Assembly (NCBI GenBank): GCA_003020925.1 | Contig: PXRT01000006.1 | Location: 1 to 64,000 of the forward strand | Origin: Halobacteriales archaeon QS_6_64_34 | GTDB lineage: Archaea; Halobacteriota; Halobacteria; Halobacteriales; Haloarculaceae | Direction: 5' to 3' | DNA: 64,000 nucleotides | Shown: positions 32,110-38,742 of the stretch, one piece after another | Position numbering within the stretch: position 1 is the stretch's first letter | Layout: each line of letters starts with the position of its first letter | Notes under the pieces: model-generated | What the model was told of the DNA's origin: nothing | The model's input: the letters and a program-made list of their open reading frames with translations, nothing else | Databases searched by the model: none | Position numbers and translations under genes: made by a program

Positions 32110-32157
32110 TGCTCTATCTTTGCCAATCCGGCCTAAATGCTTTGTCGTTGTGCGGGC

Positions 32158-32389
32158 GGTGGTGTTTAGTTAGGCGATTCAGACTGTCACCAGCCAGAAA
32201 GCCCCGGCTGGCTTCGGTCGGGGGGCTTGCTGCGCTCCTCGGCCTTCGGCCTGTGGTGCTTACGTCGCCCGCCTTCCCGAAGCCAGCCGCCCCTTTCAGT
32301 CCCACCCGCACTGATTGACCAACCGGCATGGGCGGGACTGAAAGGGGCCGACCCTCTCTTCCGCGTTTTCTACCAAACTAAACACTACC
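32158..32389. mobile_element. MITE-like element, copy A, with 8-bp target duplication
   Basis: Terminal inverted repeats GGTGGTGTTTAGTT (32158-32171) and AACTAAACACTACC (32376-32389), 13 of 14 matching. The flanks are GTGCGGGC at 32150-32157 and GTGCGGGC at 32390-32397, an exact 8-bp duplication. Inside, one complete minus-strand module (32191-32307) has arms GGCTGGCTTCGG (32206-32217) and CCGAAGCCAGCC (32277-32288). The second, plus-strand module is cut: GGGCGGGACTGAAAGGGGC is present, then sequence jumps to the right end. No transposase; presumably moved in trans. Confidence 0.85.
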
Positions 32390-32475
32390 GTGCGGGCTGT
32401 ACATCGGACACACAGCGCCGCCGCTACCGGACGAGCACGCAAAAAAGTTCGAAAGTCAAGGACGGGGCGGTCCCG

Positions 32476-34695
32476 TTAGTTGTTGCGTCGGACTGCGAGC
32501 AGCGCAGCAGCGATGAGAGCGATGAGCGCGAGGGCGGCCGTGAAGCCGGGACCGCTACCGCCGGTTGCGGTCTCCTCGGACTCGTTGCCATCAGTCGCTT
32601 CTGCGGGGTCCGTCATCGGCTCTGCCGTATCCGTCATCGGCTCTGCCGTGTCCGTCATCGGCTCTGCCGTGTCCGTCATCGGCTCTGCCGTGTCCGTGGT
32701 CTCGTTCGGACTTGGGGTCCCGGCTTGGCCCGAGTCTTCGACGAGTCGACCGTCGTACTCGTCGCTGCTCACGTCACCGAAGACTGCGTCGGCGGTGAGT
32801 TCGGAGCCAGCGTTGTTTTCGCTGAAGTCAGCGACAGCGGTGAAGGTACCGTCCGCCTGGACGGTCGCTTCGGGCCGCTTGACGAACGGGTCGCCGCTGG
32901 TATCGCTGTCGAGGGTAACCTCAACGTCGGTGCCAGGTGCGAGGTTCGTCTCGCCGGTCACTTCCTGACCAGCCGCAGCTTCGAGAACGATCTCGTCGTC
33001 TGCGTTGGCGTCGAGTTCGAGTTCAGCGTCTTCGACGTCGAACGCTCCAGTGACGGAGACATCGTCATCGAAGAGGTCGCTGTTGTCATCGTACGCGGTG
33101 AAGTTCGCGGTGTACTCGTCACCGGATTCGTGGTTGCTGGCCGAGTCGGTCAGCGCCCAGCTGTCGATGACCACGAAGTGCACGTCGTTCACATCGTCGT
33201 AGACGACGGAGACGTTGTCGTCACCGAGGTCGCTGACACCGATGACGTCATCGCCCTGGTTCGGGACGCTCTCGCCCTCGAACGTGAGGTTGAACAGGTC
33301 CCCGGTCGAGGATGCGGCCGTGTAGGACGACGTCGGGTTGTCGACGAGTGCACCTTCGAAGCCGGAGGCTTCGACCTGCACGACGACCGTGTCGTTCTGT
33401 GCGACCGTGTCAGTCTGGGTAAGGTTCCCTCCCTGTGCGTAGGCGGGGATATCCTCGGCATCAGCGCTACCGATGTCGCTGTCCTCGGGAGCCGTCCAGA
33501 CCTGCATACTGTCGACGGACGGGTCTTCCAGCGAGAGCGTGCCACGGCTGTCGGCATTGCCATCGATACTGCCGCTAGCGTGTCCGCTTTTCACATACAG
33601 GTTGTAGTCCGCGGCGTCAAGGATGTCATCTCCCCTCGGGCTGTTGAAGTTGATACTGGAGTCGTTCGTGATCGTATCAATGGTCGTTTCACTACCGGCG
33701 GTGAGCGTCTCTCCTGCTTGAGCATCACTGGTATTGTTCCCAGCGAGGTAGGTGTTGAACTCGAGGTACGCAACACCGTCGTTATTGTCGTCGGTAATGT
33801 CAGCGGCGACCTGGTAGCCGTTGTTACTCTCCTTGCCGATCTGGACAGTCGCCTCGTCGGTGTTGTCCATCTCGACGGAGATGTTCACCACGTCACCACG
33901 CTGTTCAGTGTAGACGTTCTCACTGAACTCCGCGTCAGCGGAGCCGGTATCGGTGACTTCGATGTCGTCCGAGTCGGACGCCGAGGTGTCGTTCACCTCC
34001 GCGTCGAACGTGTACGTGCCGGCATCATCGTCGCTGAAGTTGAGAGTGTACGTCGTGTCACCGGGGACAAGAATCGTGTCGTCGTCGGAGAACTCGTTAA
34101 CGGCAGCACCGTTGAAGGTGTCATTGAGTTCCGACGCGTCCAGGTCGCCCTGGGCCGAGATGTTGACGTAGTAGTCCGTTCGAACATTGGAACTAATCTC
34201 GTAGTCAACCTCTGCGGAACCGCCGGAGTTGCCGACGGAGTCCTCATCGAATTCGGCCGTCAGGTCCTGCGTGACGACTTCGAAGGATTCAGCGCTCACG
34301 TCATTGGTGTTGGTGTTAACATCACCAGCGTGGCCGTTGCTCTGAATGTCGACCGCATACCCGGTATCGTTGACGAGAACGAACTCACCGTCGGAGAGTG
34401 AGCCATCGAGCGTAAACGTAGCGTTGGTGGTGTCAACGTCGAGCGTCCGAACGAGTGTGCTTGCCTCGTCGTCGCTGTTTACTTCTCGAATCTGGTAGGT
34501 TTCGTCACTGTTGAGTTGCGATACGAACACGTCTTGTCCGGCATAGAAGGTGCCACCTGAATCGAGCGGCTCGCCTTCTAGGCCTTCGTTTGTCGCAGCG
34601 GCACTCCCGGACAGCGCGATGGACCCGGCGAACACCGAGAAAACCATCAGCGCAGCCAGAATCAGGCCACGAAGCTTGTCTGAATTGTTTGTCAT
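32476..34695 (-). CDS. csg: S-layer glycoprotein (major cell surface glycoprotein)
   Basis: 739 residues. Signal peptide (LRGLILAALMVFSVFAGSIA ... GSAAA), beta-rich extracellular domains with many N-glycosylation sequons and an extreme acidic bias, a Thr-rich spacer with four EPMTDTA-type repeats near residues 668-696 (likely O-glycosylated), and a C-terminal PGF motif (716-718) followed by a membrane helix and RRNN, the ArtA recognition tail. Forms the two-dimensional wall lattice. Transcribed from a strong TATA box with a leader of roughly 110 bases, as in Haloferax volcanii csg. Confidence 0.93.
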   Translation of the reverse strand: MTNNSDKLRGLILAALMVFSVFAGSIALSGSAAATNEGLEGEPLDSGGTFYAGQDVFVSQLNSDETYQIREVNSDDEASTLVRTLDVDTTNATFTLDGSLSDGEFVLVNDTGYAVDIQSNGHAGDVNTNTNDVSAESFEVVTQDLTAEFDEDSVGNSGGSAEVDYEISSNVRTDYYVNISAQGDLDASELNDTFNGAAVNEFSDDDTILVPGDTTYTLNFSDDDAGTYTFDAEVNDTSASDSDDIEVTDTGSADAEFSENVYTEQRGDVVNISVEMDNTDEATVQIGKESNNGYQVAADITDDNNDGVAYLEFNTYLAGNNTSDAQAGETLTAGSETTIDTITNDSSINFNSPRGDDILDAADYNLYVKSGHASGSIDGNADSRGTLSLEDPSVDSMQVWTAPEDSDIGSADAEDIPAYAQGGNLTQTDTVAQNDTVVVQVEASGFEGALVDNPTSSYTAASSTGDLFNLTFEGESVPNQGDDVIGVSDLGDDNVSVVYDDVNDVHFVVIDSWALTDSASNHESGDEYTANFTAYDDNSDLFDDDVSVTGAFDVEDAELELDANADDEIVLEAAAGQEVTGETNLAPGTDVEVTLDSDTSGDPFVKRPEATVQADGTFTAVADFSENNAGSELTADAVFGDVSSDEYDGRLVEDSGQAGTPSPNETTDTAEPMTDTAEPMTDTAEPMTDTAEPMTDPAEATDGNESEETATGGSGPGFTAALALIALIAAALLAVRRNN
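32608..32691. repeat. Four tandem 21-base repeats in the S-layer gene
   Basis: Four direct copies of GTCCGTCATCGGCTCTGCCG plus one T, with one base change in the second, encoding MTDTAEP-type units in the cell-wall spacer of the S-layer protein. They are coding repeats, not a CRISPR array, and could change number by slippage. Confidence 0.9.
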
Positions 34696-34832
34696 AGTTG
34701 TTGGTTGCTATCGGGCGGCGTCAGCCGTTTTCCACGTGGTCGGAACGCAGTCACCGCGACCGCGCATAGACCGAACCGGTGTACTCACTTCTGGCGCCAT
34801 AGGTAGGGGTACGGTAGTAACCTCTGGCGGGT

Positions 34833-34843
34833 ATTATAAATGT
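34833..34843 (-). promoter_or_regulatory. TATA box of the S-layer gene
   Basis: On the minus strand CATTTATAATA lies about 140 bases before the csg start; transcription about 25 bases downstream would give a leader of around 110 bases, unusual in a genome of mostly leaderless genes but known for csg. The leader (34696-34810) contains no competing ORF of note. Confidence 0.6.
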
Positions 34844-35000
34844 TTTGTGGTCACGGCTGTGGGATGACATGATTTGCCACACTCGAAATCGGAGTATAGA
34901 GGCGCTCCTGAGTTAGTATAAGGGCTTTGTGGCTACTGTCAAACATGTGTCATACAGGCGTCTGACGCTGTGGGTTCAAGTACTACGACAGAACGGTCCG
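34844..35000. other. Non-coding region between csg promoter and antitoxin gene
   Basis: No gene recognised. No toxin gene lies next to the antitoxin-like gene on this side. Confidence 0.5.
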
Positions 35001-35240
35001 CTAGTGGTCCCGTTGGGTCCACGCGAACGCAGCCCCAAGGCTGGACTCGTTCAATCGCTCCCGAGCCCGGTCCATCTCCTCGATATCTTCCTCGTCGAAC
35101 GATGGGAGCGACTCGGCAATCGCTTCCACGTCTTTCTCGCTCCGGCTGAGACGGTCCAGCAGGTCGTCAAACGTCTCGTCGTCCCGTTTGAGGTCTCGAA
35201 GGCGTTCTTTCACCTCGTCGGAGACACGTATTGTACTCAT
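35001..35240 (-). CDS. VapB-type antitoxin-like protein, no adjacent toxin
   Basis: 79 residues: MSTIRVSDEVKERLRDLKRD is a typical strand-helix start of haloarchaeal VapB/RHH-like proteins, followed by DETFDDLLDRLSRSEKDVEA and an acidic tail. Such proteins usually pair with a PIN-domain VapC toxin, but none is encoded on either side, so it is an orphan antitoxin or a stand-alone DNA-binding protein. TATA-like ATATATCGTATAC just upstream. Confidence 0.75.
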   Translation of the reverse strand: MSTIRVSDEVKERLRDLKRDDETFDDLLDRLSRSEKDVEAIAESLPSFDEEDIEEMDRARERLNESSLGAAFAWTQRDH

Positions 35241-35345
35241 GTGTATACGATATATACGAAAAAGCGTAGGCGTTTCGGTCACCGAGAGAGCGGGGCCAAC
35301 AGCCGCGCTGTGTTCTATCGAAGACGTTGGTCGCCGTGCACGTCG

Positions 35346-36098
35346 CTACTCTCTAACGATTTCGACTTCGTGCCCCTGTGGCGTCTTGGTGAACGCATAG
35401 CGGTCGTCACAGCTCTCGGGGTCCCGATAGTCCTCGGCGTTGCGCTGCAGCAGCGTCTCCCAGGTGTCGTGGAGGTCCGGAGTCCGAACAGCGACGTGGC
35501 CCCAGGCGTCGCCGATATCGTAGCTGCGGCCGTCGTAGTTGTAGGTCAGCTCCACGGACATCGCCTCGTCGGCGGCGTCGCGGGGCTTGAGGAAATACAG
35601 CGCAAAGGAGGAGTGCTCGGAGCGCCGGAACATCTCGTAGTCCAGCTTCCGTGTGTACCAGCCGATAGCCGTGTCGGCGTCCTCGACCCGCAGCATCGTG
35701 TGGTCGAGACTCCACTTCGCGCCGTGGTCGCGCTCGACGATTTCGACTTCGTGGCCGTCGGGGTCCTTGATGAAGGCGTACGAGCCGCCACAGGAGTCGG
35801 GGTCCCGGTAGTCCTCGACCCCGGCGTCCATCAGCTCCTCGTAGGCGTCGTAGACGTCTTCGACCCGAACGGCGATGTGTCCCCACGCGTCCCCGTGCGT
35901 GTACGAGCGCCCGTCATGGTTGTACGTTAGCTCGAGCAGCGCCCCCTCCTCGTGAACGTCTTCGGGCCCGAGGAAGACGTTCGTGAACGTATCGGCCTCC
36001 CAGCGGCTCTTCTCCTCGTAGTCCAGGTAGTCCTGATACCAGGAAAGCGAGGCTTCGAGGTCTTCGACACGCATCATCGTATGGTCGAGTGTCAGCAT
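35346..36098 (-). CDS. Two-domain VOC (glyoxalase-like) family protein
   Basis: 250 residues made of two tandem glyoxalase/VOC units: LTLDHTMMRVEDLEASLSWY near residue 2 and SLDHTMLRVEDADTAIGWYT near 125, each ending in GHEVEIVER/VRE. Metal-ligand His and Glu are present in both (LDHTM; LLELTYNHDG; GHIAVRVED; HEVEIV). Lactoylglutathione-lyase annotation is common for such proteins, but haloarchaea lack glutathione, so the substrate is open. ATG 36098 preferred to an upstream in-frame start because the first VOC strand begins immediately. Confidence 0.88.
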   Translation of the reverse strand: MLTLDHTMMRVEDLEASLSWYQDYLDYEEKSRWEADTFTNVFLGPEDVHEEGALLELTYNHDGRSYTHGDAWGHIAVRVEDVYDAYEELMDAGVEDYRDPDSCGGSYAFIKDPDGHEVEIVERDHGAKWSLDHTMLRVEDADTAIGWYTRKLDYEMFRRSEHSSFALYFLKPRDAADEAMSVELTYNYDGRSYDIGDAWGHVAVRTPDLHDTWETLLQRNAEDYRDPESCDDRYAFTKTPQGHEVEIVRE

Positions 36099-36145
36099 GG
36101 TCGAACGGTCGGCCCGAACGGCGAAAAGCGTACCGACAGCTCGTG

Positions 36146-36331
36146 TCACTCAGCCGTCTCGCCGGCAGCGAACAGCGGCCAGTAGCACCACCAGACGACC
36201 CCCGAAAACGCACTCGCGAGCGCGAGAAGATACAGCAGGACGCCAGTGTGCCACGACTGGATAAGGACCGTCCACGGGAGCAGTCCCACCAGAGCGACGA
36301 CAGCGAGCCGACGCCGCGAATCAGCGACCAT
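36146..36331 (-). CDS. Small two-helix membrane protein
   Basis: 61 residues: basic start MVADSRRRL, helix VVALVGLLPWTVLIQSW, helix GVLLYLLALASAFSGVVWW and AGETAE end. Lies 47 bases upstream of the VOC gene on the same strand. No function recognised. Confidence 0.6.
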   Translation of the reverse strand: MVADSRRRLAVVALVGLLPWTVLIQSWHTGVLLYLLALASAFSGVVWWCYWPLFAAGETAE

Positions 36332-36392
36332 ACCGGACGGGAGGACTGCAGCGTAAGTACCGTTGTGCGCGCACGCGAACCACCATCGGAAT

Positions 36393-37502
36393 CTACCGCC
36401 GAGCGACGATGCGCAACACGTCTTCGTCGGCCAGTTCGTGGTCCCGACCGACCTGCTGTTCGTCGTGTTTCGCGCTCGGACCGGTGACTCGAGCGAAGCG
36501 GAACCGCTCGTCGAAGCTCCCGCCCAGCTTCTCGCAGGCGTCGTCGACGGTGGCACCCTCGCGGAGTATCAGGGGCTCCTCGCGGTCGACGCCGCGGCCC
36601 GGCTTGTCCATGTAGATGCGGATGAGCCCGAGTTCCGCCCAGATGCGCTCGACGAGCCCCTCCAGACCCTTCTCCTTCTCGGCGCTGATGAAGATGGCGT
36701 CGTCGGGGTCGATATCGCGCTCTTCGAGTTCCGCTTCGACCGTCGGGAGATACTCCGGCTCGATGAGGTCGGCCTTGTTGACCACGACGATGGAGGGGAG
36801 GTAGACGCGGTTGTCCATCACGCCGTCGACGAGCCGGTCGATGTCGACCGTCTCGCCGATGGTGACGTCGGCGTTGACGTAGCCGTGCTCGCGCAGGACG
36901 CCTTTGATGGTCTCTTCGTCCAGTTCGAGGTCGGCGGCCTTGTTGATGGAGAGGCCGTCTTTGCCCTTCTTTCGGATGGTGACACGCGGGGGCTCCGCGT
37001 CGAGTCGAATCTTGTTCTTGTACAGCTCCTCGCTCAGGCGGTCGTACTGGTCGATGTCGAAGACGGAGACCATGAAGACGATGAGGTCGGCGGTCCGGAC
37101 GACCGACAGCACCTCCTGACCGCCGCCCCGGCCGCCGGCCGCGCCCTCGATGAGTCCGGGGACGTCGAGAATCTGGATGTTCGCCCCCTTGTGTTTGAGC
37201 ATTCCCGGATAGACGTCAAGCGTCGTGAACTCGTAGGCACCGGTCTCGGATTCAGCGTTCGTCAGCGCGTTCAACAGCGTGGACTTCCCGACGCTGGGAA
37301 AGCCGACGAGCGCAACGGTGGCGTCGCCGTGTTTCTCGACGCCGTAGCCGCCGCCCCCGCCCGAGCCGGACTGCTGTTCTAGCTGCTCCTTTTTCTCCGC
37401 GAGCTTAGACTTCAACCGGCCGATATGGGCCTCTGTCGACTTGTTGTAGGGCGTACTGGCGATTTCGTCTTCGAGTTCCTGAATCTCGTCTTCGAGCCCC
37501 AT
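36393..37502 (-). CDS. DRG/Obg-family GTP-binding protein
   Basis: 369 residues. Coiled N-terminal region (LEDEIQELEDEIASTPYNKS), G1 GFPSVGKST near residue 68, G3 DVPGLIEGA, G4 NKAD near 247, and a C-terminal TGS domain (IRIYMDKPGRGVDREEPLIL ... ADEDVLRIV). Archaeal counterpart of eukaryotic DRG, ribosome-associated. Start 37502 (MGLEDEI) fits the family. A mobile element has landed 53 bases upstream of the start. Confidence 0.93.
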   Translation of the reverse strand: MGLEDEIQELEDEIASTPYNKSTEAHIGRLKSKLAEKKEQLEQQSGSGGGGGYGVEKHGDATVALVGFPSVGKSTLLNALTNAESETGAYEFTTLDVYPGMLKHKGANIQILDVPGLIEGAAGGRGGGQEVLSVVRTADLIVFMVSVFDIDQYDRLSEELYKNKIRLDAEPPRVTIRKKGKDGLSINKAADLELDEETIKGVLREHGYVNADVTIGETVDIDRLVDGVMDNRVYLPSIVVVNKADLIEPEYLPTVEAELEERDIDPDDAIFISAEKEKGLEGLVERIWAELGLIRIYMDKPGRGVDREEPLILREGATVDDACEKLGGSFDERFRFARVTGPSAKHDEQQVGRDHELADEDVLRIVARR

Positions 37503-37555
37503 TGTGTGTACGTCCGCCCCGCACGCCGAATAAGGCTTTCTTCCCTCGCCGACCC

Positions 37556-37774
37556 GGTGGTGTTTAGTTAGGCGATTTAAACTGTCAACAGCCAGAAAGC
37601 CCCGGCTGGCTTCGGTCGGGGGGCTCGCTGTGCTCCTCGGCCTTCGGCCTGCGGTGCTTACGTCGCCCGCCTTCCCGAAGCCAGCCGCCCCTTTCAGTCC
37701 CACCCGCACTGATTAAGTCGAGCGGTCGGGGGCTTTCTGGCTCTCTTCCGCGTTTTCTACTAAACTAAACACGA
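37556..37774. mobile_element. MITE-like element, copy B, with 11-bp flanking duplication
   Basis: Left terminal repeat GGTGGTGTTTAGTT (37556-37569) and right repeat AACTAAACAC (37763-37772). The flanks carry CTCGCCGACCC at 37545-37555 and again at 37775-37785. The complete minus-strand module is nearly identical to copy A, including arms GGCTGGCTTCGG (37604-37615) and CCGAAGCCAGCC (37675-37686). Its plus-strand module is deleted differently: the GAAAGGGG start is gone but GGGGGCTTTCTGGCT remains. No coding capacity of its own. Confidence 0.83.
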
Positions 37775-37865
37775 CTCGCCGACCCCGACCGTGGCCCGCG
37801 ATTACCATGGTTAATTCCCGGAGATTTCGATACACCTATACGACGCCCGCCACCAGCAGACGAGT

Positions 37866-38066
37866 ATGGTGAACGCGGACAGATTCCGTGACAGCACGCA
37901 GATTCTGTTGCCTGCGGGCGCGCTCAACGGAATCCGTGACGAGCTGGAATCCCGCTTTACCGTCACCGTCCGCACCGAGGACGAGCGTATTCGCATCATC
38001 GGCTCACCCGTCGAAATAAAAGACGCGGGTGACTTCCTGGCGATGAACGGCATTACCTTCGCCTGA
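37866..38066 (+). CDS. Small conserved haloarchaeal protein (VNG_1110C family)
   Basis: 66 residues, beta-alpha-beta-like: DRFRDSTQILLPAGALNGIR, then FTVTVRTEDERIRIIGSPVE and FLAMNGITFA. Same neighbourhood in other haloarchaea, just before rpl11. May be a small DNA- or RNA-binding protein; no experiment known to me. Confidence 0.82.
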   Translation: MVNADRFRDSTQILLPAGALNGIRDELESRFTVTVRTEDERIRIIGSPVEIKDAGDFLAMNGITFA

Positions 38067-38082
38067 AAAACGTTCATGAAAG

Positions 38083-38118
38083 AGGCCGGAATCTCGGTCT
38101 CCGGCCTCGATTCCGGGG
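38083..38118 (+). terminator. Possible stem-loop terminator region
   Basis: AGGCCGGAATCTCGGTCTCCGGCCT: GGCCGGA pairs with TCCGGCC around a short loop, 17 bases after the stop of the VNG_1110C gene; a partial second copy (CGATTCCGGGG) follows. No T-run. Confidence 0.4.
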
Positions 38119-38169
38119 AAACCGCTCACTACGTTCGCGGTATGCTGCTGACAACAGCCGAAAAGCACG

Positions 38170-38388
38170 TCAAACCGGCGTAGTCCCGCGTCGCTTGCCG
38201 AATAGATAGATTATATAGACCAGCATCAGAGGCATAGAGTACAGTCCGCCAATGACTCCGCCGCCGACGACTGCGCTCAGTAGCGGCTCACCGGTGAGGC
38301 TTCCGGCGGTGATACCCAGAAGCACGAAGGTTCCAAACAGAATACGGAACAGTCGAAGTTCGGTTTGTTTCAGCGGAAGGAGGGACAT
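38170..38388 (-). CDS. Small two-helix membrane protein
   Basis: 72 residues with helices RLFRILFGTFVLLGITAGSL and GGLYSMPLMLVYIIYLFG and a basic end GKRRG. Lies between a conserved gene and the third mobile element. No similarity recognised. Confidence 0.6.
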   Translation of the reverse strand: MSLLPLKQTELRLFRILFGTFVLLGITAGSLTGEPLLSAVVGGGVIGGLYSMPLMLVYIIYLFGKRRGTTPV

Positions 38389-38440
38389 ACGTCAGTGGAG
38401 GATAGGCGAGCACATAACTGTTATCTGTCCATCACTGGCA

Positions 38441-38716
38441 GTGTTTAGTTAAGCGACAGCGACGGCAACAGCCAGAAAGCCCCCGCGTTCTCAGCTCCCG
38501 CGACTCGCTGCGCTCCGGTGGGTGCTTGCGTCGCCGGGATTCGCTGAGAACGCGGCCCCTTTCAGCCCCACCCATGCTGGCTGGTCACCCGGCTACGGGT
38601 GGGGATGAAAGGGGCGGCCTGCTACACGAAGGCGGACGACGTAAGCACCGCAGGGAACGAAGTGACCGAGGAGCGCAGCGAGGCCCCCGAGTGTAGCAGG
38701 CCGGGGCTTTCTGGCT
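38441..38716. mobile_element. MITE-like element, copy C: both modules complete, right end missing
   Basis: Begins with GTGTTTAGTT (38441-38450) but has no matching right terminal repeat; sequence changes after CTTTCTGGCT at 38716. It has two complete modules back to back. Minus module arms: CCGCGTTCTCAGC (38483-38495) and GCTGAGAACGCGG (38543-38555). Plus module arms: GGCCTGCTACAC (38616-38627) and GTGTAGCAGGCC (38691-38702). The centre CCCCACCC ... GGGTGGGG is a further inverted repeat. The element ends 25 bases before the rpl11 TATA box. Confidence 0.8.
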
Positions 38717-38742
38717 TCACGCGGCGCCCCCCGAAACGCAAT

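Follow-up and report, generated by a model that had tools for sequence, protein, structure and literature searches.

The window analysed here is a stretch of 64,000 nucleotides from Halobacteriales archaeon QS_6_64_34 (contig PXRT01000006.1, positions 1 to 64,000). Between 32158 and 38716 it holds three copies, A, B and C, of a short mobile element that carries one or two hairpin modules. A preliminary description of this DNA had placed four fixed-frame modules in the three copies, and all four are indeed present, with exactly complementary arms. In each, GAAAGGGGC is followed by an arm, the core, a second arm that is the exact complement of the first, and finally GGGGCTTTC; core variants are GGAGCGCAGCAAG in A and GGAGCACAGCGAG in B. 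Full elements consist of two modules arranged head to head. The features in the window are as follows.

32158..32389, unstranded: copy A, a miniature inverted-repeat transposable element (MITE) with ends GGTGGTGTTTAGTT / AACTAAACACTACC; right-hand module lost.
32150..32157: left copy of the target-site duplication of A, 8 bp, GTGCGGGC, read directly; right copy at 32390-32397.
32197..32297, minus: hairpin module of A, arms GGCTGGCTTCGG / CCGAAGCCAGCC; covariance-model match 32192-32307, 123.0 bits.
37556..37776, unstranded: copy B, a MITE with ends as in A; right-hand module lost, its outer end kept at 37729-37742.
37547-37555 and 37777-37785: flanks of B, CGCCGACCC on each side, 9 bp shared.
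37595..37695, minus: hairpin module of B; covariance-model match 37590-37705, 126.9 bits.
38437..38716, unstranded: copy C, left terminal repeat and two head-to-head modules, without right terminal repeat.
38470..38483, plus: outer stem strand of C, AGCCAGAAAGCCCC; partner at 38703-38716.
38475..38563, minus: left-hand hairpin of C, with arms CGCGTTCTCAGC / GCTGAGAACGCG and one further C-G pair; covariance-model match 38470-38573, 111.2 bits.
38564..38606, unstranded: central linker of C, AGCCCCACCC...GGGTGGGGAT, third arm of the junction described below.
38607..38711, plus: right-hand hairpin of C, with arms GGCCTGCTACAC / GTGTAGCAGGCC; covariance-model match 38597-38716, 134.0 bits.

Copies A and B have GGTRGTGTTTAGTT ends and target duplications of 8-9 bp; no transposase gene lies in A, B or C. 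Of 10 genomes searched in the genus, 9 contain the pattern GGTNGTGTTTAGTT, with several inverted pairs about 696 bp apart. Identical 8-bp flanks were observed in five of the seven stretches examined and were absent in two, one of them a 276-bp element. A 211-residue transposase frame, from the one copy examined, matches Pfam DDE_Tnp_IS240 (2.4e-6) and the NCBIfam IS6 transposase NF033587 (1.1e-54). Because the same ends bound this IS6-family (ISH14-like) transposon of about 696 bp, the movable part is a MITE, and A to C are non-autonomous MITEs with IS6-type ends. They share its terminal inverted repeats (C the left repeat only), and the 8-bp duplication is seen in A and B. We refer to elements with an IS6-type terminal repeat as type I and to those without as type II. 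In 41 stretches from two genomes, 19 of 53 elements have the terminal repeat on at least one side, and a direct repeat of at least 8 bp stands at the expected place in 8 of the 14 type-I elements that have both repeats. The shared ends and the duplication length suggest that type-I copies may be moved in trans by an IS6-type transposase. An IS1595 transposase had been considered as the owner of GTGTTTAGTT and was replaced by IS6: 18 matches in six of nine genomes gave no locus with a pair of ends, one (L177) having a single motif resembling a terminal inverted repeat and another (L187) a single outer end.

Relatives have an empty site at B and no outer end at the position of C. At the B site, no outer end or terminal repeat was found within 450 nt in 29 of 29 relatives' loci (31 relatives had a match), and the closest relatives have a single CGCCGACCC-type stretch, with changes, uninterrupted. 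At the C site, the 1300 nt upstream of the gene for ribosomal protein L11 were free of outer ends in all 29 relatives' loci; we take the downstream gene to be that of L11 from a reading of its sequence and its position. The earlier proposal that the family is mobile is thus borne out by target duplications, empty sites and an autonomous IS6-type relative.

The family is far larger than the three copies first recognised. The pattern GAAAGGGGC-N70..100-GGGGCTTTC has 38 matches in the source assembly (2.2 Mb, 80% complete), 14 forward and 24 reverse; the reversed control pattern has none. The 14-base outer end AGCCAGAAAGCCCC, with at most one mismatch, occurs 169 times in this assembly, 155 times in Haloarcula rara (G002) and 14 times in a further genome (G032), against 3, 3 and 2 for the respective controls. 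A BLAST search with B gave matches in 47 of 60 genomes, its own included, and most of the matches listed cover only about nt 32-151. Among the matches listed in a further scan, carriers include Haloarcula, Natrinema, Halobaculum, Halorussus, Haloparvum, Natronococcus and Halonotius. A covariance model, the check proposed at the outset, was applied to the class Halobacteria (E ≤1e-5, at most 12 candidates scored per genome); 224 of 292 genomes, belonging to 62 of 77 genera, have modules. On 196 genomes of the phylum the model was positive in 28, all of them the source itself or members of its genus, family or order. Seventeen plasmid records match, all haloarchaeal by name and none covering 80% of the query, and the phage collection contains nothing that matches the module. 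Against Rfam, the four modules are without a match at the gathering score (the signal recognition particle RNA and two tRNAs are the only matches in the window), and no recognisable description of the module stood among the papers listed by a literature search. The module is not tied to IS6-type ends. It sits inside at least two kinds of outer ends, and the hairpin is not itself the end of an insertion sequence.

Several local arrangements were also seen. In Natrinema and Haloterrigena (L229, L242, L248, L287) modules share one intergenic gap across several related genera, and L302 also has a module there. A longer linker class, in which a conserved stretch resembling GCGAGGGAYGAGC...GARTCGGCTGGGGAGG precedes GGGTGGGACTGAAAGGGGC, lies upstream of the module in L346, L347, L219, L201, L205, L360 and L370. 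In Haloarcula rara one side of the element bears repeated blocks, 45 or 54 bp long (L041 299-500, L042 223-281, L043 266-333, L044 243-310, L048, L049). Each block ends in AGCCAGAAAGCCCC; L041 has four identical 45-bp blocks, and similar blocks stand on the right side at L074.

Pairing within the module was analysed on 29 modules, three of 32 having been left out (an inverted core, a broken upstream side and a near-duplicate). There are 34 pairs, 22 of them with changes on both sides, and of 945 cells 98.2% are paired. Covariation scores 0.554, versus 0.158 for shuffled alignments, none of 500 shuffles reaching the observed value, and versus at most 0.072 for slid pairings. Taken alone, the count of further pair types does not stand out clearly from the shuffles, of which 51 in 500 reach it. 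A search by exact ends gave 243 distinct modules; 236 have at least 8 of 12 arm pairs and seven fell below this threshold. The 236 modules contain 185 distinct arm sequences, and 131 are perfect Watson-Crick stems. Arm complementarity is 94% within a module versus 47% between modules. The original proposal that pairing rather than sequence is kept therefore stands: further copies keep complementary arms, and the arms are not a few fixed sequences. The 2832 arm cells include 87 G·T, 11 A·C and 68 other non-Watson-Crick combinations. Equal numbers of G·T and A·C would be expected if both DNA strands mattered alike, so the excess of G·T indicates that one strand folds. The module also has fixed non-pairs, namely a C·C at 37/90 in 23 of 29 modules and GA loops.

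Folded singly, the two modules of C have z scores of -2.5 and -3.5. The whole of C (38432-38740) folds into a four-way junction of -177.7 kcal/mol (z -6.7), made of the outer stem, two side hairpins and the central linker stem. Within a module GGGC stands opposite GGGG; in the junction each of the two has its partner in the other module. Many copies elsewhere have no partner module, yet GGGYGGGAYTGAAAGGGGC is kept in them, one locus set having been chosen by GGGYGGGAYTGAAAGGGGC itself and 70 others by a model that includes it. A G-quadruplex formed from GGGYGGG...GGGG...GGGG was also considered; the G runs persist in single modules, but the first run is broken in several copies and the idea was not adopted.

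The two modules of an element avoid sharing arms. Among 62 distinct head-to-head pairs no mates share 9 or more of their 12 arm bases, where 5.2 would be expected from random re-pairing (p 0.004), and two pairs share at least 8 (11.4 expected). Mean mate identity is 4.79 versus 5.72 after permutation, and none of 5000 permutations is as low. Four genomes contribute three or more pairs each, 28 in all; with re-pairing confined to within these genomes, 4.6 would be expected at 9 or more (p 0.011). The effect stays after greedy dereplication to 52 pairs, two sharing at least 8 bases versus 9.7 (p 0.001), or versus 7.4 with first-base classes kept (p 0.012). With 47 pairs and first-base classes kept, p is 0.003 for the mean and 0.012 for the count at 8 or more. 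Common arm families are found on both sides of elements. The outer triplet following CTTTC (TGG, GAG, ACG, TTG and others) is identical on the two sides in 55 of 62 pairs (31% expected), and a non-TGG triplet is the same on both sides in 24 of 31.

Outer ends of type-II elements were gathered in two genomes, over 855,812 bases in stretches chosen for containing elements. The tetranucleotide CTAG lies 15-70 nt outside 56 of 102 outer ends that have no IS6-type repeat; the local rate of 0.5 per kb predicts 2.8. Just outside the type-II ends of the Haloarcula stretches L061-L100 and the window, CTAG is enriched about 20-fold. PMC6471742 describes CTAG as rare in haloarchaea and as the likely target of a conserved orphan methylase present in 174 of 217 haloarchaeal genomes. 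Such ends invite comparison with IS605 and PATE relatives, which would have near-terminal palindromes, a variable terminal stretch, CTAG as the targeting oligonucleotide and a Y1 transposase as mover. The variable flank followed by CTAG fits this idea, as do the lack of a consistent long target duplication in 34 type-II elements, expected where at most a short targeting oligonucleotide is duplicated, and the resemblance to PATEs as described in PMC3119063. The two modules are, however, inverted, and no relation of the type-II ends to the genome's IS605-type transposons was found: 40 tnpA/tnpB loci (30 TnpB loci of about 95 matches and 10 of 11 Y1 loci), taken with at most 1.5 kb of flanking DNA on each side, contain no module. 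Furthermore, three of eight module-bearing genomes searched (G001, G025, G042) have no Y1_Tnp match. We consider this relationship decidedly unlikely. As movers, a Y1 transposase was rejected with one locus (L161) showing a single motif like a terminal inverted repeat and no outer end, and TnpB with no end motif in the 30 loci examined.

The element is kept in several species at one orthologous site, which lies between the starts of two divergent genes. Whole or partial elements occur in 7 of 30 Haloarcula loci inspected: full in G002, G010, G000 and G025 and partial in G029, G007 and G023, bounded by CTAG or a decayed form of it. In 15 of the 23 loci without the element the two flanks lie within about 10-25 nt of one another, an arrangement that fits insertion at CTAG. 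The left arms are GCCGGGCTGAAC in G002, GACCCGTTCGAC in G010, GAGCGGCTACGG in both G000 and G025, GACTGGCTCCGG in G007 and GGCGTGCTACCC in G029, that is, five different arms in six copies with a left arm. Except in the truncated G007, each is still paired to a complementary arm, three of them with one or two mismatches. The left arm family of G002 is the right-module arm family of G000, and exchange or inversion between modules may therefore take part. These changing arms at a kept site, and the avoidance of shared arms by mates, are what is new here.

The same site bears on a reading in which the repeat is mobile, functionless and decaying, its arms staying complementary through hairpin-mediated repair or template switching that copies one arm onto the other. 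That arms change here as blocks, that one family serves the left module of one species and the right module of another, and that one core (L020, 1501-1597, minus) is inverted between otherwise normal arms would all be expected from such copying. Repair should also heal fixed mismatches, yet the C·C at 37/90, the GA loops and the GGGC and GGGG beside the arms are conserved. It further predicts equal numbers of G·T and A·C, against the 87 and 11 found. On balance we regard copying by repair as unlikely.

With genes called by our own codon model, 98 of 115 elements lie between two called genes and 17 inside a called gene or at an edge. The 98 comprise 34 divergent, 51 codirectional and 13 convergent placements; for all 568 gaps of at least 100 nt in the same DNA the numbers are 156, 303 and 109. 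GC-rich hairpins within intergenic DNA could in principle be bidirectional transcription terminators or gene boundary elements, but convergent pairs are 13 of 98 for elements versus 109 of 568 for gaps and divergent pairs 34 of 98 versus 156 of 568. This role is disfavoured and appears highly improbable.

The preliminary description had left the choice between a functional RNA and a hairpin needed for movement. In the minimum-energy fold with RNA parameters, 275 of 314 distinct modules have a single hairpin loop at the tip. C(GNA)G triloops account for 152 of these loops and triloops of other sequence for 60; 9 are tetraloops, none of them GNRA, and 54 are larger. Within the central 20 nt of the 314 modules, CGNAG occurs 241 times on the sense strand and 8 times on the opposite strand. 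Unusually stable mini-hairpins of DNA are characterised by GNA triloops and by tandem GA pairs of the PyGAPu type. It is mainly these tip motifs that lead us to prefer DNA over RNA, and the argument is indirect. A structured non-coding RNA transcribed from the element, the modules acting as RNA, would account for the strong strand-specific covariation in which G·U is allowed and A·C is rare, for the conserved interior of the module and for the frequent position of elements upstream of genes. Apart from the nature of the tips, a transcript across an inverted pair would have one module antisense, the number of matches by BLAST and by outer end differs widely between related genomes (the covariance model scored at most 12 candidates in each), and Rfam has no match at the gathering score. 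Tip loops and positions favour DNA; of the two original options the hairpin for movement is the more likely, and the RNA, which we consider doubtful, the less favoured.

Taken together, the data point to selection acting on folding, more likely of DNA than of RNA. With moderate confidence we propose that the module is a single-strand DNA hairpin used in mobility, kept able to pair with itself and distinct from its inverted mate. When a strand is exposed, as the lagging-strand template or during excision, each module would form a hairpin with GAAAGGGGC/GGGGCTTTC as its conserved base, a stem of 12 bp free to vary, a conserved interior rich in GA and C(GNA)G at the tip. A four-way junction would then arise from two inverted modules, which a putative enzyme or host factor may recognise for mobility or maintenance of the element. 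The arms would be free to change as long as they pair with themselves and not with the inverted mate; they would have to differ from it because identical mates would make the element one long palindrome. The module would act neither as a protein gene nor, probably, as an RNA. We infer from the sequences that single-strand DNA is the folded species, that a hairpin-reading enzyme exists and that there is selection against identical mates.

Several observations weigh against this proposal. Of the G·T cells, 52 of 87 fall in the two innermost arm pairs, the ratio elsewhere being 35 to 10. Copies A and B persist with a single module, and two modules are thus not required for presence. For the 47 pairs re-paired within first-base classes, significance is not reached at 9 or more shared bases (p 0.085). 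Single-linkage dereplication leaves 21 pairs, 64 of the 124 arms being chained into a single cluster; the effect is then no longer significant under free re-pairing (mean p 0.12; 0.03 with classes kept). Mate avoidance could reflect survival of less palindromic copies and not function. The covariation and folds use RNA energies or none and do not separate DNA from RNA, and the DNA interpretation rests on the loop motifs. The tnpA/tnpB loci free of modules and the genomes that carry modules and have no Y1_Tnp match count here too.

If the proposal of a folded DNA hairpin is extended to the whole class, which we do tentatively, Halobacteria would share a DNA structure of inverted hairpins with 'private' stems. 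The arms, self-complementary and unlike those of the mate, would give a four-way junction and not one long hairpin; covariation would arise from folding of single-strand DNA, a putative enzyme would read the hairpins and CTAG would mark the ends. Covariation is normally read as a sign of functional RNA. A large and clean signal in mobile DNA with a DNA-like tip could be a counter-example, and it is a ready test set. The requirement that arms differ from an inverted mate offers an explanation for variable stems around fixed cores. The type-II ends link a high-copy repeat to a motif that is rare in haloarchaea, and the IS6-type ends carry the same structure as elements with other ends.

Two neighbouring features of the window may be recorded. 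The region 32476-34695, adjoining copy A, encodes a large PGF-CTERM surface protein (DUF7827) with a 21-bp tandem repeat in its C-terminal part (32595-32699), and 35001-35282 encodes a VapB-like antitoxin (PF02697).

Among known systems, repetitive extragenic palindromes and their mosaic elements (REP/BIME), associated with TnpA-REP (RAYT), are likewise high-copy intergenic hairpins that often occur as inverted pairs. The module differs in being much longer and in its variable 12-bp stem, and the cognate Y1 transposase of the REP/RAYT system has no match in three of the module-bearing genomes. A search for empty hairpins, which would indicate a host element with an inserted core, gave one doubtful coreless hairpin (L079, 9111-9217) that deletion can explain. 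The type-I elements resemble the IS6-family (ISH14-like) MITEs of haloarchaea in the terminal inverted repeat GGTNGTGTTTAGTT, the 8-bp duplications, the short length and the lack of a transposase gene. MITEHarch3 is an ISfinder entry of this kind, and the autonomous relative here, about 696 bp with a 211-residue transposase, has the sizes given for ISH14, both according to PMC6807381. Compared by description with ISH14 and MITEHarch3, the present elements differ in holding one or two class-wide hairpin modules that are also found without these ends.

The PATEs and SMRs of Haloquadratum are both free of transposase genes according to PMC3119063. That account gives PATEs near-terminal palindromes, a variable terminal stretch of 20-50 bp, a short conserved terminal oligonucleotide and no long duplications, all as in type II; our elements differ in that their two modules are inverted, that some copies are flanked by CTAG at either end and that the IS605-type loci examined contain no module. 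SMR-A, in PMC3119063, is about 110 bp long with prominent inverted repeats, many copies, an association with palindromes, no duplications and a mobilisation termed 'enigmatic', and is alike in these respects. A further trait of SMR-A is insertion into the near-terminal palindromes of PATEs, on which the doubtful coreless hairpin at L079 is the one observation here. Identity within an SMR type is there commonly above 95%, unlike the freely varying arms seen here, a comparison made by description. Judged on the same descriptive footing, PATEs and SMRs are the nearest described kinds to the type-II elements.

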